Shown here piece after piece: positions 9,678 to 35,233 of a stretch of DNA of 39,275 nucleotides (the stretch's first letter is position 1; each line of letters begins with the position of its first letter). The translations under genes were made by a program, and so were the position numbers. Origin of the DNA: Pyrolobus sp. (GTDB taxonomy: Archaea; Thermoproteota; Thermoprotei_A; Sulfolobales; Pyrodictiaceae); the NCBI GenBank assembly GCA_015521195.1, contig WAOO01000127.1, positions 1-39,275 on the forward strand, written 5' to 3'. The notes beneath the pieces are model-generated. The model was not told where the DNA came from and did not search any database. It saw nothing but the letters and a program-made list of their open reading frames with translations.

Positions 9678-9956
9678 GTGAGCGTTTTGAGCGGCGTTTC
9701 GACCTGGCGTTCACTCCCATTATACCTCCTGGTCTACGAGGAGCTCAGACGGTTGGCTCCTAACCCGGGCGACCATGTAACGGATGTGAAGCTTTACGAG
9801 GCTGTAAGGAGGCGTGCGAGACAGATGGGTTTCGAGGTAAGCTTCTCCGACTTCCTAAAGGCGCTCATGATACTCGAGGTTCACGGGTACGTCAGTGTTA
9901 GAAGTACTAGCGAGAAGGCGGATACTGGCAGGATAATCGAATTGGTTAAGAGATGA
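9678..9956 (+). CDS. Small putative winged-helix protein between cdc48 and fen
   Basis: 92 aa, GTG start directly after the cdc48 stop; SLPLYLLVYEELRRLAPNPGDHVTDVKLYEAVRRRARQMGFEVSFSDFLKALMILEVHGYVSVRS has a wHTH-like pattern. Confidence 0.65.
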   Translation: MSVLSGVSTWRSLPLYLLVYEELRRLAPNPGDHVTDVKLYEAVRRRARQMGFEVSFSDFLKALMILEVHGYVSVRSTSEKADTGRIIELVKR

Positions 9957-20555: not shown

Positions 20556-22157
20556 CTGCCAGAGGTAGGCACGTTCGAGGTCAAAGATAAGGACCTTGCA
20601 GGTAGGATAGGAAAGCTATACACTCCTCACGGTGTTCTCGAGACGCCGGCGTTACTCCCGGTCATAGACTTGGCGAGACAGGCGCCCTCCGTAGACGAGA
20701 TAGCGAAGCTCGGCTTCCAGGCAGTGATAACAAACGCCTACCTGATATGGAGGCGTTGGCGGGATGAGGCCCTCGAGAAAGGTGTGCACGGTCTGCTTGG
20801 CTTCGAAGGGATAGTGATGACCGATTCGGGTGCATACCAGCTGCTACGCTACGGCCACGTCGATGTATCACCCGACGATATCGTAGAGTTTCAGAAGCGG
20901 ATTGGAAGCGACATAGCGGTCATCCTAGATGTCCCTACGGGCACCGCAGGAGGCTATGCAGAGGCTAAGAGGAATGTGCTCGAGACGCTTAGAAGGGCGA
21001 GAGAGGCGCTGCGCCTAATAAAAGGCGATCGCCGAGTCTGGACTCTACCTGTACAGGGAGGCCCCTACATCGACCTCGTTAGATTATCCGCGGGCGAGTC
21101 TGCAAAACTCTCCGATTACTACAGATTATACGCGATAGGCTCGCCTACCACGCTGCTAGAGAGGTATTCGTATGCAGAGCTCGTGAGAATAGTAGCTGAG
21201 GCTAAACTAAGGCTCCCCCTATCCCATCCGGTGCACTTGTTCGGCGCAGGACACCCGATGATGATACCTTTCGCCGTAGCCCTTGGCGTGGACATGTTCG
21301 ACTCTGCATCCTACATACTCTATGCTCGCGACAACCGATACATGACTCCATCGGGGACCTATCGCCTCGAAGACATGGAGTACTTTCCATGCAGCTGCCC
21401 AGTATGCACCAAGTATACACCCAAGGAGCTCATGGAGCTGCCTGTCCATGAGCGTGTAAGGTTGCTCGCCCTTCACAACCTATACGTGCTACGGGAGGAG
21501 ATAAACCGCGTAAAGCTTGCAATAAGAGAGGGGAGGCTTTGGGAACTGTTAGTTGAGCGGGCTCATGCACACCCGTCTCTTAAGCGTGCGTTAAAAGTTG
21601 TAATAGAGTATTCCGGCTACATTGAGAAGCTGGACCCGCGTGTAAAAGGCGGTGAGGTGCACGGCCTCTTCTTCTACGGTATACCCGAGGAGCTCGAAAG
21701 GCCCGAGGTGAGAAGGCATCACGAGCGTGTAGTGTCATGGTATAAGAGGCCGGGGGGCAAAGAGACGCTCATACTCATGCCTATAGATGTTGACGTGAAG
21801 CCTTTCACGTCTTCAACCCTCTATAAGCAGTTAAAGAAGAGCAACAGCGCGGCTCACATCGTCGGGTACGTGCCACCCCTAGGGCCCATACCCGAGGAGC
21901 TTGCAGAGACGTACCCTCTCTCGCAGTTCGAAGCGCCGCGAGACTTTACAAGCGAGGTTATAGAGGCTACAGCGAAGGTCATAGCAGAGTATATTGAGAA
22001 GCAGGGTTACAAGACCATAACAGTCTACTATGATAAAGGCGATTGGAGTGAACGCCTAACCCGCATCCTAGTAGAGCTGCTAAAGGGTAAGCGGATAGAG
22101 CTGCGCCAGGTGGGTGGCGAAGATGAAGCTGCGGAGGGCAACGAGGGAAGAGATTGA
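20556..22157 (+). CDS. tgtA: Archaeosine tRNA-guanine transglycosylase, catalytic part (split form)
   Basis: LPEVGTFEVKDKDLAGRIGKLYTPHGVLETPALLPVID...ITNAYLIWRRW...IVMTDSGAYQLLRYGHVDVSPDDIVEFQKRIGSDIAVILDVPT...VHLFGAGHPMMIPFAVALGVDMFDSASYILYARDNRYMT...FPCSCPVCTKYTP; conserved N-terminus requires start upstream of TTG 20670; CTG 20556 proposed. Confidence 0.92.
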   Translation: MPEVGTFEVKDKDLAGRIGKLYTPHGVLETPALLPVIDLARQAPSVDEIAKLGFQAVITNAYLIWRRWRDEALEKGVHGLLGFEGIVMTDSGAYQLLRYGHVDVSPDDIVEFQKRIGSDIAVILDVPTGTAGGYAEAKRNVLETLRRAREALRLIKGDRRVWTLPVQGGPYIDLVRLSAGESAKLSDYYRLYAIGSPTTLLERYSYAELVRIVAEAKLRLPLSHPVHLFGAGHPMMIPFAVALGVDMFDSASYILYARDNRYMTPSGTYRLEDMEYFPCSCPVCTKYTPKELMELPVHERVRLLALHNLYVLREEINRVKLAIREGRLWELLVERAHAHPSLKRALKVVIEYSGYIEKLDPRVKGGEVHGLFFYGIPEELERPEVRRHHERVVSWYKRPGGKETLILMPIDVDVKPFTSSTLYKQLKKSNSAAHIVGYVPPLGPIPEELAETYPLSQFEAPRDFTSEVIEATAKVIAEYIEKQGYKTITVYYDKGDWSERLTRILVELLKGKRIELRQVGGEDEAAEGNEGRD

Positions 22158-22596
22158 GAGGCTGAGGGCAATAGCCGATTACCAATTCGGCCCTAGCGCG
22201 GGTGAATGCCTAATACCGGATGGTGCAATAGTCGGAGTGTCCCCGAACACACTTAGGATAAGGGAGGTGTACGAGGCCGAAGGGAGGCTCATAGCCACCC
22301 TACGCGCACACGACTATCTATACTCGCTTAACATACTGGGCGCGCTAAAACTCCTCAAGTGTTTTGAAAAACCCGCCTTAAGGGCAGTGGTTGACCCCCA
22401 GAGGGTCGAGAAGGCTAAAAGTATTCCATCCCATGCCATCCTCGAGATAGACGAAAGGCTGAGGGCTGGCGACGAAGTGATAGTTGTCGATGCTGAGGAC
22501 AACCTACTCGGAGTGGGTAGATTGAGACTATCGCCTTTAGAGATAAAGGCGCGGGTCTACGGCGAAGCGATAAGGCTGCGTAAGAGGGTGAAGTAG
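22114..22596 (+). CDS. PUA-domain C-terminal partner of archaeosine TGT (TgtA2-like)
   Basis: IADYQFGPSAGECLIPDGAIVGVSPNTLRIREVYEAEGRLIATLRAHDYLYSLNILGALKLL...VDAEDNLLGVGRLRLSPLEI; matches the C2+PUA part of full-length TgtA; GTG 22114 or ATG 22123. Confidence 0.85.
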   Translation: MAKMKLRRATREEIERLRAIADYQFGPSAGECLIPDGAIVGVSPNTLRIREVYEAEGRLIATLRAHDYLYSLNILGALKLLKCFEKPALRAVVDPQRVEKAKSIPSHAILEIDERLRAGDEVIVVDAEDNLLGVGRLRLSPLEIKARVYGEAIRLRKRVK

Positions 22597-27095: not shown

Positions 27096-30000
27096 GTGAA
27101 GGTGAGGCTGAAGCGTAGCACTTTGTATGCGTATCTGTTTGTTACGCTAGCAGTGCAGCTTATACTAGTGGCTTCGAGCGTAACGGGTAACGCTCAATCA
27201 TTGCCCTTATGCCCTTCGCCCTACCATCGCGTCGAAATAGGCGCACCTATCTACAAGGTGCTCTTCGACGGCTCTAAGTTATGGGTTGTGTACCCGGCGG
27301 GCGACAAGACGGATATAGCACTTTACACGCTTCAGGGTGGCTCGTTCATACAGAGGTGGGTGAGCAGCCTACCGGGCAAACCGCTGGCAATAGCCACCGA
27401 TGATAAGCTTAACCTGTTAGCGGTTGCAACCGATGCTAAGAAAGTAGCAGTCTTCGACATACACGGCAGGCCGGTCCTCTACCTGGAGAGGGGTGTACGC
27501 GGCAAGCCCCTCTACATCGACATAGTGAAGCTTAAAGACGAATACGACGTGATAGTGATAGAGGAGTTTGAGAACGGCTATTGGGTCTACGCTTACAGCC
27601 TCAACTATACGAGGAGACCCGCCGAGGCATGGTTCCCTGCGCCCCCAGCCCTGGGCCTTACAAAGTATAAGCTAGTTCCAGTTCTAATAGCGGGTAGTTA
27701 TGGCGCATTACCATCCTTTGCAGTAGTGTGGGTAAACACCACAACCTACAATTACACCGGCATCCTGGTGCAGGGAGACGAGGTCATAATAGACCTGTAC
27801 AACCTCACTATAGGCAGCACGGGTAGCCTCGAGTTTACCAAATGGTTCAGCTTTAAGGTGCAACCTGGCTACGAGATAAACGAGTCGCCATACACGATAC
27901 AGAGCATAGACTATGTAGATGTATACTACTCGCCGCTCCGCAAGAAGGTGTACGCCGCGCTAGGATTAACCATGGTGCAGAATTATAACTCGCAGCTGGG
28001 AGGTAAGCAGCTCCCAGGCACGCTCTACGCATTCATGCTGGTCGACTCCGAGACTAACACGAGCCTCGTAAGATACGTTGATGTGAACATTGGGACGCTA
28101 GACTTCTACCCCCTAGGCGGGAAAATGACAGCATTCGCAGCGACACGTGACAACTACATGCTCGCGGTAGGCTCCCAAGACTATAACATGCGTATCTTCA
28201 CCTATTCGATTACAGACGGCTACTACTACATACTATACTCCGTTAGCCTCGCTGGGCCCGTCTCAGCTCTCTCAATCTCGCCCTACGGCCAGCTCGTCAT
28301 AGCGGCATCCACGAACGGCCAGATGATCGCAGTGAACGGTCCAACAGGCTCGATATACTGGAGTCTACCTATAGGAGCATCTGCTACAACTGCCTCGATA
28401 TACTCGGGGTATGCCGCTGTAGGTACACAGGGCGGGACGGTACTAGCCTTCACAAATCCGAGGTTCAAACTATACTATCTGGGCATACGTGTAAACGCAA
28501 CCAGCATCGAAAACGAGACGTACGTGCTGAAGTCGAATACGACGATACGCATAGTCGGCGTGTACCAAGGATGCCTGGTAAACAAGACTTTCACGACAAC
28601 GTTGCAGAGACTAGCCTCCAGCGTCTACTTTGAACTCCTACCATCCACAAGCTACACCGTCACTATAGACAATGAGATACTCGGTATCGTGGTCTACAAT
28701 ATACTATTAACCTCGAATGTCGTGTACAATATACTGCCTAGCGACTTCCACATACCCTACTACCACCTCAAACTATGCCTAATAGACACTTGGAGGCATA
28801 AGCCGCCCGTATGGCAAGGCGCACAGATAAATGTGACCAGACTGGCGTCTCCAACGCCAAAAGCACAAGTGATAGCAAGCTGGGTTTACCCGCTAACACC
28901 CTCCGGGTGCCTAGACTTACTGCTGCCACGAGGCTACTACAAGCTCATGCTCGTATCGTGGAGGTACCACCCAGAGATAACGTTCAACAGAAGCCAGAAC
29001 ATCGTTAGACTCTGGAGCAACGTGACCCTCACCGGTTACGTGACACCCTACCTGGCAAAACAGGTCGTCATAAACGTCCAGACAGACTATGGCCTGCCGC
29101 TGAGCAACGCAAACGTAACCCTCTACGACCCATTCAGCGGCGTCCGGCTGAGCAGAATAAGCGGTGCTGGCAAAGTGGTCTTCACTTCGATACCCTACGG
29201 CAACTACACTGTAACCGTTACTTTCCCATACGCGTATCCCGCGAAGGCATTGCTCAATCTAGACTCCGATACAGCCTCGCTGACAGTCACGCTAAAACCC
29301 CGCAGTTACTACCTCGTCATAAACGTTGTAGACGCTGAGACCGGGGCACCCGTACAGCCCTTCACATTCACTCTCCTACGCCCCTTCGACGGCTACACGC
29401 TAACCGGTACGGTAACGAAGCACAACTATGTGGTGTTAAAGGTCGTATATGGCACATACACGTTGACTGTCTCGGCACCCGGCTATAAGAGCTACGAGTA
29501 CAAGTCGTTGGTCGTGGACCGCGACATGATGATAACGGCCAGACTGCCCCCCGTCTACTACCAGGTAGTCTTCCAGGTGAAGGATGCGGTTTATCAGCGT
29601 CCCCTTCCAGCGAGAATCATCGTCATCAACGAGGAAACGGGTAGGCGTTACAACCTTATGGCGCTACATGGCACTGCAACAGTCCAGCTCCGCAGAGGCA
29701 ACTATACCGTAATAGCAATCTCGCCATACGCCTACCCGAGGAAACTTAAGGTCGTCATAGCGTCGAGCACGGAGATAACGATACCGGTAACACCGAGAAA
29801 CTTTACGGTGACCGTAGTCCCTATAGATGCTCGTGCAGAGAAGCCGCTAGCCGCCCTAGGCTATAATGCGACAGGATACATATACTGCAAGGACACCGGA
29901 AACTGGACGTTAAGGTGGAACGGCTACGCCCTAGTAACGATGCTCCCATACTCGACGAGCTGCATACTACACGTAGGCTCGAGATGGTACATGCCTGCGA

Positions 30001-31433
30001 CTGTCAACCTAGGGGTTATAGCATCGAATAAAACAATAGACGTGGCCTTAACGCCAATAGAGTTTACGGTGACGCTAAGCGTCACAAGCATAGAAGGCGT
30101 GAAACTCGACTTTAACGCCACTTTCAGCGGAGGCCCGCTTAACCAGACGGTAAGTGTAAGCGGGTACGGCGCTGCAAGTGTGACGCTTAGGCCTGGCAGG
30201 TACCGGCTCATCATCTTCGCGAGATACTACATGCCGTTAAAGACGGTGATAGTAGTAAATAAGTCTCTAAAGCTCGCCTTCAGGCTGAAACCAAAACTAT
30301 ACACGGTATCAATACTGGTTCTCGACGCACAGACAGGCCGTCAGGTGAAGGGCGCGACGATACTGATAGCGAGGACCGTGCCCGTTCGCAGCCGCGAATA
30401 CACCCTGATAGCCGAGAATGGTTTCGCATCAGTGCCTCTACCCTGGGGCACCTACACGTTAACCGTTACAGCGCCGGGCTACCTCAAGAGCACCGAGACT
30501 ATACGAGTACCGCAAGAGAAGAGCGTCACTGTAACACTCGAACCCATCAAATACAAGGTAAAGGTCGAAGTTCGAGACTATTACGATGGAATGCTAGTAC
30601 CAGACGCGACGCTAACATTCTATGGAGTGAGAACAGGCATCGCGTTCCGAGTCATAGCGCCAAAGGGCACGGCAACAATAGAGCTAAGAGAAGACACATA
30701 CCGAGTCACGGTGGCAGCGCCATACTATCAGCCGTATTCGGCGACGCTCCGCATAACATCAAACCGTAAGCTAACCTTCAGGTTAAAACCGGTCAACTAC
30801 ACGCTAACAATCATAGTATATGATGGCATGACGCGCAAGCCCATACATGAACCATGGACCATCAAAGCGATTTCTCTCATCTACAAGCACTTCACAATAA
30901 CAGCCACCTTCAAGACGCCGACAGCCACAATAGAGCTGCCACGTGGAAAATACCGCATCGAGATTACAGCAAAACGCTACCAGCCCCAGACTATAAAGAC
31001 GTTGACGCTCTATGCGCCGGTATCAAAGAAGGTATTCCTTGCTAGAGAGACATACAGTGTAACATTCAAGGTGATAGATACGAGAGGGGCGCCGGTATCT
31101 AACGCAATTATAACTGCAAGGTGTCTGGATAATGGTCAAGTGTTGTTCACGGGCGTCACAGGTAAAGATGGCACTGCGACGGCGAACCTACCTTGGTGCC
31201 GTTACGAGGTGAGGATAGAGGCTGGAGGCTACTTCCCAAAGACGATATTCGTAACTATACAGAGCAATGGTCAAGTAATACCGGTTATAATAAAACCAAC
31301 GATGGCCAAGATAGTGCTAGACCTGCTTCCAGCAATAATCATCGCCGGTGCTGTGGTCGGTACTGGTGCCTGGGTCGGTATAAGGGTACGCAGGAAGCCG
31401 GCAGGTGCAGAATTGCTAGAAGAAGAGATATGA
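27096..31433 (+). CDS. Giant secreted surface protein: signal peptide, beta-propeller (PQQ/WD-like) region, about 9 tandem carboxypeptidase-regulatory/PEGA-like beta-sandwich modules, C-terminal TM anchor
   Basis: 1445 aa; N-terminal hydrophobic signal LYAYLFVTLAVQLILVASSVTGNAQS; propeller-like VSALSISPYGQLVIAASTNGQMIAVNGPTGSIYW; repeated modules ending G.YTLTVSAPGY..., LRRGNYTVIAISPYAYP, LPWGTYTLTVTAPGYLKS, LREDTYRVTVAAPYYQP, LPRGKYRIEITAKRYQP; C-term VLDLLPAIIIAGAVVGTGAWVGIRVRRK. Confidence 0.88.
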   Translation: MKVRLKRSTLYAYLFVTLAVQLILVASSVTGNAQSLPLCPSPYHRVEIGAPIYKVLFDGSKLWVVYPAGDKTDIALYTLQGGSFIQRWVSSLPGKPLAIATDDKLNLLAVATDAKKVAVFDIHGRPVLYLERGVRGKPLYIDIVKLKDEYDVIVIEEFENGYWVYAYSLNYTRRPAEAWFPAPPALGLTKYKLVPVLIAGSYGALPSFAVVWVNTTTYNYTGILVQGDEVIIDLYNLTIGSTGSLEFTKWFSFKVQPGYEINESPYTIQSIDYVDVYYSPLRKKVYAALGLTMVQNYNSQLGGKQLPGTLYAFMLVDSETNTSLVRYVDVNIGTLDFYPLGGKMTAFAATRDNYMLAVGSQDYNMRIFTYSITDGYYYILYSVSLAGPVSALSISPYGQLVIAASTNGQMIAVNGPTGSIYWSLPIGASATTASIYSGYAAVGTQGGTVLAFTNPRFKLYYLGIRVNATSIENETYVLKSNTTIRIVGVYQGCLVNKTFTTTLQRLASSVYFELLPSTSYTVTIDNEILGIVVYNILLTSNVVYNILPSDFHIPYYHLKLCLIDTWRHKPPVWQGAQINVTRLASPTPKAQVIASWVYPLTPSGCLDLLLPRGYYKLMLVSWRYHPEITFNRSQNIVRLWSNVTLTGYVTPYLAKQVVINVQTDYGLPLSNANVTLYDPFSGVRLSRISGAGKVVFTSIPYGNYTVTVTFPYAYPAKALLNLDSDTASLTVTLKPRSYYLVINVVDAETGAPVQPFTFTLLRPFDGYTLTGTVTKHNYVVLKVVYGTYTLTVSAPGYKSYEYKSLVVDRDMMITARLPPVYYQVVFQVKDAVYQRPLPARIIVINEETGRRYNLMALHGTATVQLRRGNYTVIAISPYAYPRKLKVVIASSTEITIPVTPRNFTVTVVPIDARAEKPLAALGYNATGYIYCKDTGNWTLRWNGYALVTMLPYSTSCILHVGSRWYMPATVNLGVIASNKTIDVALTPIEFTVTLSVTSIEGVKLDFNATFSGGPLNQTVSVSGYGAASVTLRPGRYRLIIFARYYMPLKTVIVVNKSLKLAFRLKPKLYTVSILVLDAQTGRQVKGATILIARTVPVRSREYTLIAENGFASVPLPWGTYTLTVTAPGYLKSTETIRVPQEKSVTVTLEPIKYKVKVEVRDYYDGMLVPDATLTFYGVRTGIAFRVIAPKGTATIELREDTYRVTVAAPYYQPYSATLRITSNRKLTFRLKPVNYTLTIIVYDGMTRKPIHEPWTIKAISLIYKHFTITATFKTPTATIELPRGKYRIEITAKRYQPQTIKTLTLYAPVSKKVFLARETYSVTFKVIDTRGAPVSNAIITARCLDNGQVLFTGVTGKDGTATANLPWCRYEVRIEAGGYFPKTIFVTIQSNGQVIPVIIKPTMAKIVLDLLPAIIIAGAVVGTGAWVGIRVRRKPAGAELLEEEI

Positions 31434-31540: not shown

Positions 31541-31975
31541 ATGCTCGGTGGTAAGATACACGGGGGCCGTGTATTGGCGCTGGATGAGCTACGCCGAGAG
31601 CTGGATAGGATACGCCGCCTGCTACAAGCCTATGGCTTCGTTCCGCCAGATGAGCCGCCATTCGACCCTCAGCAGGGGATACTCTACCCGCTCTACACGC
31701 TAGAGCCTTATGAGGATGCATACCGCATACTGATAGACTTGCCAGTTGCAAACTTAGATACCCTCAAGGTATACACTGAGGATGGGGAACTCATAGTCGA
31801 GGCTAGCCTAGAGAGGGAGATAGAACTTGGAACGCCGTGGAGCTATGAGCGTCGAATAATAGTTAGGAAGTATCGTAGGCGCATAGCACTACCCTCTGAT
31901 GCGGATGTAGGAAACATGAGGATACGGGTCTACCCAGATAGAAAAATGGTGGAGATAGTCATCCCTCGCCGCTAG
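31541..31975 (+). CDS. Small heat shock protein (Hsp20/alpha-crystallin family)
   Basis: LYTLEPYEDAYRILIDLPVANLDTLKVYTEDGELIVEASLEREIEL...YERRIIVRKYRRRIALPSDADVGNMRIRVYPDRKMVEIVIPRR. Confidence 0.82.
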   Translation: MLGGKIHGGRVLALDELRRELDRIRRLLQAYGFVPPDEPPFDPQQGILYPLYTLEPYEDAYRILIDLPVANLDTLKVYTEDGELIVEASLEREIELGTPWSYERRIIVRKYRRRIALPSDADVGNMRIRVYPDRKMVEIVIPRR

Positions 31976-33146
31976 TCGCCTCCATGCCCTCCTCCCCGGT
32001 CTTCCTTCTCCTGCGTCTCCGCGTTCGGAGAACCGCATAAACTACAGCAGCTATACCCGCGTATACCAAGATTGGGGTAAGGTCGATGACCACAAGGACG
32101 TTGCTCGACTCCGCTATGGCTGGATGATCCACTCCAACGCATTTTGCTAAGGCGTATGCCCTTAGAGGCATTGTAGCTAACGGTATTAGAAGCTGAGGTG
32201 GCGTATACGCGGCGATTTTACCTCTAATAGCATGCGTCTCCATCGTCCCTAGCTTACCATTAACGATATACTCGGAACGCTTAGTATAGGAGCCTAACGT
32301 GGCTGTCATCTCTACTTTACATCTAGACGAGTTAGTCGTTAGTGTAAGGCTATAGTCGGCGTCGACAATTCCGCCGAAAAGAGTGAGGTATGGGTTGTGG
32401 ACAGTGAGTGCCAGTGTCAGATGTACGACAATCCTGCCTATGACGAACCTTACTCGCAGGCCATCAGTACTAACATTCACTGCTTCAGCGGTCAGCATGA
32501 ATGTATGGAATGTGTGTGGCTTAAAAGGCCCTAGGTTATAGCATAGTCTTCTTCCTCGGTTGACATATACTAGCTTCTTGTCTATCACCTTGCCGTCTAG
32601 AATCGCTGTTAAGATAACTCTGAATCCGCGCCCCCTAGGAGAGTATGGGGCTAGGCCCATGCATATCTCTGCAGTCTTCTCTGCAGGGTTGACGTGAAGG
32701 CTTAGAAGGGAGACTCTCACGCCAGGCACGATCACGTATATGGGCACGACTATTACGGGAATTGCACGTACACTTCCACCCTGGGCTTTCCGAGGGGCTA
32801 GTTCGATAAAGAGTCCATACTTGTAGTATCCAGGTCTATACGCGAATATGCCTAGCGTGAGGAATGTTGTATCGTCCCTACGCGTCACGTTCAATATCGT
32901 TACGTTGATGCCATCGCGGCTACCACTCAGCCATTTTACATACATCTTTGCAGGTTTTATGCCAATGACGCGTACGGTTACGCTTGCCGAGTAGCCCTGA
33001 GGCACATACGCCTCTATCTTTGACGGTGTGATTGCAAAGCCGGTAACCTGTGCCCTCACAGCCTGAGAGTAGGCAGTCGAGCCGGTTAAACTAAGAGAGA
33101 AGATGAGAAACAACGCTGTAAAAACGAGTATCGTGTGTTTCGCCAC
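31959..33146 (-). CDS. Secreted, C-terminally membrane-anchored protein with N-terminal Ig/PapD-like domain
   Basis: 395 aa; signal peptide LVFTALFLIFSLSLTGSTAYSQA; GFAITPSKIEAYVPQGYSASVTVRVIGIKPAKMYVKW; C-term TM LTPILVYAGIAAVVYAVL followed by RTRRRRRRK. Confidence 0.75.
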   Translation of the reverse strand: MAKHTILVFTALFLIFSLSLTGSTAYSQAVRAQVTGFAITPSKIEAYVPQGYSASVTVRVIGIKPAKMYVKWLSGSRDGINVTILNVTRRDDTTFLTLGIFAYRPGYYKYGLFIELAPRKAQGGSVRAIPVIVVPIYVIVPGVRVSLLSLHVNPAEKTAEICMGLAPYSPRGRGFRVILTAILDGKVIDKKLVYVNRGRRLCYNLGPFKPHTFHTFMLTAEAVNVSTDGLRVRFVIGRIVVHLTLALTVHNPYLTLFGGIVDADYSLTLTTNSSRCKVEMTATLGSYTKRSEYIVNGKLGTMETHAIRGKIAAYTPPQLLIPLATMPLRAYALAKCVGVDHPAIAESSNVLVVIDLTPILVYAGIAAVVYAVLRTRRRRRRKTGEEGMEATSGEG

Positions 33147-33190
33147 CGTAAATCACCATGTTACGGTCTCCCCTTGAGCCAATCAGCTCT

Positions 33191-34360
33191 TTACGTCTGC
33201 TCCAGCTCTATGTAGACTGTCGCTGTGTACTTGCCTGCAGGGGCGCCGACGGGCAGTATTATGGCTGGCCAGGCGTGCAGGTATGGCTCCTCGCTGTTAG
33301 CGTAGAGTGGGCCTAGGGTAGCCGAGTACGGTATAGGCTTGACAGGTATGAGCGTTATTTCGAGCGTTGTCGAGCTGAGTGCAAGCTCTACCCTGTAGTA
33401 GGCGGTTTCGGTTACGCCGCCGGGATAGCCGACGGTGTAATTGAGTACCGTGTAGTCGGTCTGGTTGTAGTTGTAGAATTGTATTGCTGGTGTGTTGGCG
33501 AGGGCTGAGGTGCCGCCTGGCACGGCATAGTCGGCGGTGGATGCTAGGTCGGCCCTGGAGGGTGCAGTCGCGGCGGCGGTCGCGTTGCTGCTATCCACGT
33601 CGAAGTCGCAGGTCGGGTTGACTATGACAATCTCGTCTCCGCTGAGCTGGCCGGCTGCAAGGCTACCGTCCTTATCGGCTACGAGTATACAGAGGCTTGT
33701 AGAGTTGGCTACAGTGAAGGTGCCGGTCGAGGGGTTGTATAGCACCGTTATAGCCGGTATAGTGACCTTCTCCGCGTAAGTATAGTTGTACCACTGTGTC
33801 TCGTTATAGCTGGTGCCATAGAAGGTGTTTAGGAAGCCCTCCGGCAGGTCTATCCATGTCAACTGGGAGCCCGTATTGAGATACTGCTGGTATAGGTTGG
33901 TGGTGCCGAGGTCCATGGTTATCGTATAGTTCTGCACCTCGATTTGAACAGTGTTGGTCAGGTTTGTGGGGCTGGAGGAGCTGGTCACATTGAGATACAG
34001 CGAGACTATGGGTACCTCCATGCCGCTTGGATAGCTTGGAGGCAGGCTTATGCTATAGGTGTAGCTGGCGGTGAGGTTGACGTTCGTACCCGTCATGTTG
34101 AATATCATGTCGTCTGTCGCGTTAGCGTTAGCCCAGCTTGCAATACTGTTGTACGTTATCGTTGGAACGTTGGCCGGATTTACTGTAATCACTGATGCCG
34201 TGTCGATGGGCGTCGCAGCAATGTACCCTGTAACCGTGACGGTCACCGTACCCGTGCCGGTTGCAGTGGTCTGCGAGAAGACAGTTGTAATGCTGGCAAC
34301 CGCCGCGGCGATGGCAACGAGAACCACTACAGTGTATGCGATGTATACACGTCTCGTCAT
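33191..34360 (-). CDS. Thr/Asn/Tyr-rich secreted protein, candidate TasA/camelysin/cannula-type filament subunit
   Basis: 389 aa; signal MTRRVYIAYTVVVLVAIAAAVASITTVFS then TTATGTGTVTVTVTGYIAATPIDTASVITVNPANV; very few Lys/Arg; many N-x-S/T sequons; SD-like ggaggg upstream on the minus strand. Confidence 0.75.
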   Translation of the reverse strand: MTRRVYIAYTVVVLVAIAAAVASITTVFSQTTATGTGTVTVTVTGYIAATPIDTASVITVNPANVPTITYNSIASWANANATDDMIFNMTGTNVNLTASYTYSISLPPSYPSGMEVPIVSLYLNVTSSSSPTNLTNTVQIEVQNYTITMDLGTTNLYQQYLNTGSQLTWIDLPEGFLNTFYGTSYNETQWYNYTYAEKVTIPAITVLYNPSTGTFTVANSTSLCILVADKDGSLAAGQLSGDEIVIVNPTCDFDVDSSNATAAATAPSRADLASTADYAVPGGTSALANTPAIQFYNYNQTDYTVLNYTVGYPGGVTETAYYRVELALSSTTLEITLIPVKPIPYSATLGPLYANSEEPYLHAWPAIILPVGAPAGKYTATVYIELEQT

Positions 34361-34615
34361 ACTATTTCAACCCTCCAACTAGTACTACTACCGTACTATA
34401 GTCCCGGTATAAAATTGCGCTCCGAACGTGCCATGTGCCCCTTACTATACTAGTCGAATGAAAGCAAGAGTAGCTGCTAGCAGCGATATTGTGCTATGCA
34501 GAATAGCTTGAGCTTGTGAGGAAAGGGTGTTCTATGGGGACGTATCTCGTTTGACGATGGTAATGATATACACTGGCTGTCGCGGGTTTAGGGTCTCTGG
34601 GGAAGGTGAAAGGTT

Positions 34616-35233
34616 TTGGAGGGGCGCGTCAGGACTGTTTCGATGCTGATAGCCCTCATGGCGATTGTGGTAGTTGCAATCGTCCTGGGAGTCATGTTTG
34701 CAGGCTATGCGTTCAGCATATTCAGCGCATACCATTCAGATAGGCTGCAGATACGCGAAGCGCGCTACTACTACTTCACAGAGAAACCAAACATAATCTA
34801 CAATAAGTGTGTGAAACCCCCATGTGGGATTGTAGTCGTCTACCTATATTCGAGTGGACTCGTCCGCATATCGCTCATCAAATACTGGAATTACACCTGG
34901 AAGCCCGAGATGTGCCTATGGCAGACTACGCGTAGAGGCTACCTCGACCCAGGCTACAATATAATAGTGCTCACGAATCCGTCCCTAGCTACCAGCTACA
35001 TACCAGCGTGTAGGATAGTATCGCCCTCTGGCAACCCGACGGCCTACAAATGGTTCTATGATATTGTACTCTCGGACGGAGACGCAACCTCCCTGACTCC
35101 AACAGAGTTATATATACTGAAAGAGTATGCAGACCTGACGGTCAACGCGATATTCTCTCCGACGAGTTTAAAGATTATCACGGCTAACGCAGGCGAATAT
35201 GTTGTGCCCGTGGTCCCGCGAAGAGTAAGCTAA
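34616..35233 (+). CDS. Secreted pilin-like protein with single N-terminal hydrophobic helix
   Basis: 205 aa; MEGRVRTVSMLIALMAIVVVAIVLGVMFAGYAFSIFSAYHSDRLQIREARYYYF; four Cys in ectodomain (NKCVKPPCG, EMCLW, PACRIV); TTG start. Confidence 0.65.
   Translation: MEGRVRTVSMLIALMAIVVVAIVLGVMFAGYAFSIFSAYHSDRLQIREARYYYFTEKPNIIYNKCVKPPCGIVVVYLYSSGLVRISLIKYWNYTWKPEMCLWQTTRRGYLDPGYNIIVLTNPSLATSYIPACRIVSPSGNPTAYKWFYDIVLSDGDATSLTPTELYILKEYADLTVNAIFSPTSLKIITANAGEYVVPVVPRRVS

Follow-up and report, generated by a model that had tools for sequence, protein, structure and literature searches.

A Pyrolobus gene pair predicted to encode a structural surface protein and a membrane-anchored Ig-like partner

Gene pair and main finding

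Two adjacent genes, P1 and P2, most likely encode a genus-specific, abundant structural surface protein and a membrane-anchored partner with an Ig-like domain. In the reading preferred here, with a probability of roughly 45%, P1 is an abundant exported surface polymer, probably N-glycosylated, and P2 is the anchored partner that fixes or starts this polymer. The window, i.e., the whole stretch of 39,275 nucleotides that was analysed, is a contig of a Pyrolobus MAG (1.24 Mb, 78% complete); this archaeal genus is heat-loving and lives in the deep sea. The two genes were located as follows.

33191-34360, minus strand: P1, predicted 389-aa secreted beta-rich structural protein (ORF with ATG start; P. 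fumarii orthologue)
31959-33146, minus strand: P2, predicted secreted protein of 395 aa, anchored in the membrane at its C-terminus (ORF with GTG start; P. fumarii orthologue)

P2 lies downstream of P1 with a gap of 44 nt. The first-pass annotation had proposed a two-gene secreted locus, and both ORFs were recovered exactly where it had placed them, on the minus strand, and are inherited together in both Pyrolobus genomes. Judged by their relatives, P1 and P2 are real genes, since full-length orthologues of both are present in P. fumarii in syntenic position.

Relatives and conserved neighbourhood

In P. fumarii 1A, one orthologue of P1 (45-46% identity over its length) and one of P2 (35% identity) were found. 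The gene order hsp20, P2, P1, pilin-like gene, AFOR, and RsmB is common to the window and P. fumarii. The 3' ends of hsp20 (plus strand) and P2 (minus strand) overlap by 17 nt at 31959-31975 of the window, and the same convergent overlap was present in P. fumarii (9863-9879 of the retrieved locus). In six other Pyrodictiaceae genomes, hsp20 was placed among housekeeping genes and no surface gene was seen beside it.

On the other side of the pair, a divergent gene was found.

34616-35233, plus strand: type IV pilin-like gene, 205 aa, divergent from P1 (33% identity to the syntenic P. fumarii neighbour)

The P. fumarii neighbour scored 20.3 bits on Pilin_N and 18.3 bits on TIGR02537, both just below the cut-offs. 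In class III pilin leaders, G or A is usual before the cleavage point. P1 itself was rejected as a type IV pilin, with no Pilin_N match and with RRV-Y lacking the usual G/A ahead of the cleavage point.

Two further genes of the window were recorded. A secreted surface protein of 1445 aa (27096-31433) combines an N-terminal part resembling a propeller with numerous PEGA/CarboxypepD_reg repeats and with a membrane helix at the C-terminus; its gene does not adjoin the pair in P. fumarii. The tRNA-guanine transglycosylase (20670-22596) is split over two adjacent genes, one with the TGT domain and the other with C2 plus PUA.

Beyond P. fumarii, the searches for relatives of P1 or P2 came up empty. 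They covered 147 genomes from the order and about 400 from the phylum, as well as GTDB and viral contigs. The GTDB and viral contig scans probe only the more distant relatives, because genomes close to the window may be omitted there and P. fumarii did not appear. No match was obtained in PDB, Pfam, NCBIfam, or PHROGs, and in the latter three no enzyme or solute-binding family was hit. With just two sequences, profile methods have too little to work on, so such missing matches are weak evidence of absence. Besides unrelated or broken frames, the few weak extra matches comprised an ABC-linked surface protein and a SlaB-like protein; all were discarded as relatives. So far, the searched sequences place the pair apparently in Pyrolobus only.

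It is also conceivable that P1 and P2 are unrelated neighbours; P1 would then be a secreted adhesin or binding protein, and P2 would be anchored at the surface independently of it. Direct evidence of interaction between the two is absent, and their order is kept in just two genomes of one genus. However, both genes are read from the same strand across a gap of 44 nt, in which no promoter is obvious, and their order was retained despite divergence to 45% (P1) and 35% (P2) identity. This reading is considered quite unlikely.

Expression signals

Upstream of P1, two putative signals were recognized.

34408-34414, minus strand: TATA-like box TTTTATA (by sequence; AATTTATACT stands upstream of P. 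fumarii P1)
34371-34376, minus strand: Shine-Dalgarno-like GGAGGG before P1 (by sequence)

By eye, no promoter-like element was evident in the 44 nt ahead of P2, and the two genes would be co-transcribed. The codon bias of P1 beyond the GC3 expectation was 0.213. Among 18 window genes this is the joint highest value, level with a PAC2-family gene (0.213) and the thermosome gene (0.212); P2 reached 0.069. In P. fumarii the values were 0.142 for P1, which two ordinary genes match, and 0.050 for P2. As an indirect sign of expression, codon bias suggests that P1 is abundantly produced and P2 less so.

Features of P1

The following features were assigned to P1.

34274-34360, minus strand: signal peptide, residues 1-29 (hydropathy; alignment with S29 and Q30 invariant)
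34223-34255, minus strand: alternating strand near the N-terminus, TGTVTVTVTGY (residues 36-46), a candidate donor strand (TATVTVSVTGF in the orthologue)
33824-33868, minus strand: invariant motif SQLTWIDLPEGFLNT, residues 165-179 (15 of 15 residues identical in P. fumarii)
33578-33679, minus strand: acidic loop region (conserved D229, D231, D242, E243, D252, D254, and D256)
33215-33286, minus strand: C-terminal motif PYLHAWPAIILPVGAPAGKYTATV, residues 359-382 (conserved in P. fumarii)

Cleavage is likely between S29 and Q30, as the orthologue has the same S/Q-T junction. The hydrophobic segment of the signal peptide is the only membrane segment detected by hydropathy. The mature protein of 359 residues (about 36 kDa) contains 15.6% T, 7.2% N, and 7.8% Y, and only six of its residues are K or R against 27 D or E. 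None of its Lys or Arg is conserved in the orthologue. The annotated 389-aa product with a signal peptide and a Thr/Asn/Tyr-rich, Lys/Arg-poor sequence was thus borne out by composition and hydropathy. Twelve N-X-S/T sequons were counted in mature P1, of which six are common to the P. fumarii orthologue. This T/S/N/Y-rich, K/R-poor, and sequon-bearing composition is typical for archaeal surface structural proteins.

The motif SQLTWIDLPEGFLNT is the stretch of P1 most conserved with P. fumarii, and the C-terminal PVGAPAGxYTATV ranks with it among the most conserved parts. The C-terminal motif resembles the last strands of an Ig-like domain. The C-terminal part also gave a marginal profile match to a surface protein of another family, in one of 398 genomes (E 6.9e-5). 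Two Cys are conserved, C224 just ahead of the acidic loop region and C251. With its seven kept Asp/Glu, this region might be a divalent-cation site. The strand TGTVTVTVTGY is well conserved in P. fumarii, and its role as a donor is inferred. AlphaFold prediction of P1 from the single sequence gave an unusable model (pLDDT 37).

Features of P2

The following features were assigned to P2.

33066-33146, minus strand: signal peptide, residues 1-27 (hydropathy; probable cleavage between AYS and Q)
32709-33062, minus strand: first domain, residues 29-146, all-beta Ig-like pattern (low-confidence single-sequence model)
32031-32099, minus strand: transmembrane helix, residues ~350-372 (Kyte-Doolittle maximum 2.31 at 350-369; conserved in P. 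fumarii)
31962-32030, minus strand: predicted cytoplasmic Arg-rich tail RTRRRRRRKTGEEG... (by sequence; RRRRR kept in P. fumarii)

The C-terminus has one membrane segment followed by an RRRRRRK tail. The signal peptide, membrane segment, and basic tail are all conserved in the P. fumarii orthologue. Hydropathy and this conservation agree with the first-pass annotation, in which the second gene encoded a secreted, C-terminally anchored protein. A second hydrophobic stretch, at residues ~122-150, would more likely form two beta strands than span the membrane. No coiled coil was found on inspection of the sequence, and P2 appears to have no coiled-coil stalk.

When the first domain alone was modelled by single-sequence AlphaFold, seven strands were obtained with pLDDT 47.5. 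In Foldseek, this low-confidence model found immunoglobulin domains as the best matches, which were not significant (E ~0.05, TM ~0.3). The suggested kinship with PapD or DUF916-type proteins found no support, as neither P2 (searched up to E 1) nor its P. fumarii orthologue (up to E 5) matched any Pfam family, including those of the chaperone-usher (PapD-like) and DUF916/WxLIP proteins.

Comparison with surface layers

The SlaA/SlaB system of Sulfolobus consists of a soluble beta-rich protein and an anchored beta-sandwich protein (PMC10903991), and its division of labour resembles that of soluble P1 and anchored P2. A doubtful but conceivable alternative is a small surface layer of two components, or an accessory layer lying beneath or upon the S-layer; the same split of roles (PMC10903991) is one argument for it. 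The S-layer of P. fumarii has p4 symmetry, unusual in a family that is otherwise hexagonal (PMC5744192), and P1 and P2 are likewise found in Pyrolobus only. In addition, the N-terminus of P2 gave a marginal profile match to a SlaB-like protein of another family, which has a signal peptide, Ig-like domains, a heptad-like stretch, and a membrane helix; however, this match was not significant over 300 genomes.

SlaA has 151 kDa (PMC10903991), whereas P1 has about 36 kDa. By arithmetic, one P1 tetramer per 18.5 nm p4 cell (342 nm2) would give only ~0.4 kDa/nm2, which would be thin for an S-layer. P2, with three Ig-size domains and without the coiled-coil stalk of the SlaB type, could hardly span the quasi-periplasm of 40 nm (PMC3156397).

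Comparison with cannulae

CanA of Pyrodictium (PDB 7UII; CanX, 9H8B) resembles P1 in archaeal family, secretion, beta-richness, and an N-terminal segment after the signal peptide, and cannulae, like the structure proposed for P1, are surface structures. However, CanA has 182 aa, about half the size of P1, and neither sequence nor profile similarity was detected between the two. Cannula proteins are not all as short as the 182-aa CanA; the family also has open frames of ~390-450 aa, and Thr-rich linkers occur in some of them.

The start "ATGT...PID...S", which had been likened to CanA, is not conserved beyond the window copy of P1, as TATVTVSVTGFTGATVVD stands at this place in the orthologue, and shuffling gave p ~0.05-0.08. 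P1 does not carry the conserved mature start of CanA, TTQSPLxSFYAxGxAxAxxEPI, of which ATGT/PID occurs in the window copy alone. When the P1 alignment was compared with a 10-member CanA-family alignment in hhalign, the probability was 3.7 and only 14 signal-peptide columns were aligned.

The genomes were also searched with a 41-letter CanA start, a bait whose identity was confirmed by its PDB match. Cannula genes are multi-copy in P. abyssi AV2 (12 matches), and five matches were found in a second Pyrodictium-group genome. The relatives for the profile were taken from these two genomes. P. delaneyi Su06 showed no match to the start. In both Pyrolobus genomes, unlike P. abyssi, no CanA-family match was found with either the N-terminal query, which had a positive control in the set, or the 10-member alignment, which had none. 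P. fumarii was reported without a cell-to-cell network, unlike Pyrodictium (PMC3156397). The proposed kinship with cannulae is not supported by the hhalign result, by the searches of both genomes, or by the report that P. fumarii forms no network. With no profile match and a start not kept in the orthologue, P1 was rejected as a member of the cannula family.

Comparison with TasA-type filaments and threads

TasA, camelysin, and the archaeal bundling pilin AbpA are, like P1, secreted beta proteins that lack an anchor and have a partner gene close by (TapA in the case of TasA), and P1 is larger than TasA. The chaperone TapA has an Ig fold and nearly shares its N-terminal strand with TasA (PMC10151520). 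Donor-strand filaments are known in the same phylum, namely the threads (PMC9715654). The Sulfolobus thread protein Saci_0406 with Saci_0405 is comparable to the present pair, i.e., a crenarchaeal secreted, sequon-bearing beta protein with an adjoining partner gene. However, Saci_0405 is a putative cap for which Sec secretion is not predicted (PMC9715654), whereas P2 is membrane-anchored, and no PDB sequence match was found between P1 and Saci_0406.

The Peptidase_M73/camelysin model PF12389 detected its positive control, B. subtilis, but neither P1 (up to E 1) nor anything in 117 genomes of the order. The suggested kinship with TasA and camelysin found no backing here, and P1 was rejected as a member of this family. 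The two-sequence P1 profile did not recover AbpA or thread sequences from PDB. Because such a profile has little reach, close membership of P1 in the TasA, AbpA, or thread families is what the searches rule out, and a distantly shared fold would still agree with them. Pfam scanning of 27 window proteins, a subset of the ORFs, revealed no SipW-type signal peptidase. Similarity between the N-terminal strands of P1 and P2 was not beyond chance (p 0.09 in the window and 0.86 in P. fumarii).

These comparisons bear on the reading in which P1 is a genuine subunit of donor-strand filaments of the cannula, TasA, or bundling-pilus class and P2 is its anchored Ig chaperone or initiator. An anchor-less secreted P1 with a conserved alternating N-terminal strand adjoins an anchored Ig-like P2, TasA relies on the Ig-fold chaperone TapA (PMC10151520), and threads in the same phylum (PMC9715654) and cannulae in the same family offer precedents. 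However, P1 has no CanA-family profile, PF12389, or PDB sequence match, its CanA-like start is not kept in the orthologue, and it is about twice the size of CanA. The N-terminal strands of P1 and P2 are no more alike than by chance, whereas TapA and TasA nearly share theirs (PMC10151520), and SipW was not assigned among the window proteins scanned. Membership in these classes is regarded as unlikely. A new donor-strand filament built by P1 is conceivable, and the analyses run speak neither for nor against it.

Proposed role

In the preferred reading, P1, with a signal peptide and without an anchor, would be exported, N-glycosylated, and polymerised outside Pyrolobus cells. Its expression would be high and that of P2 lower, as codon bias suggests. 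P2, with a beta-rich outer part, a single C-terminal helix, and a basic tail, would fix or start the P1 polymer at the membrane. As a guess at the geometry, the polymer may be a thin filament joined via the N-terminal strand TVTVTVTGY, with divalent ions at the conserved acidic loops assisting. This thin-filament geometry has about one chance in four, and the more general assignment, a surface structural protein plus its anchor, is the better-supported one.

A more specific version is a class of extracellular filament of Pyrolobus' own, with no sequence relationship to cannulae, threads, bundling pili, or type IV pili. Its subunit would have about double the size of CanA, and an anchored Ig-like protein would start it at the membrane. 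Such a class is rather unlikely.

P. fumarii can grow at temperatures up to 113 °C. Its genome paper describes an S-layer and no other surface polymer (PMC3156397). P1, which is genus-restricted and apparently highly expressed, is with its anchored partner a concrete candidate for a further surface component of P. fumarii. If P1 does form a filament, a family already known for cannulae would have another independent polymer, and the filament would be a very heat-stable protein material.
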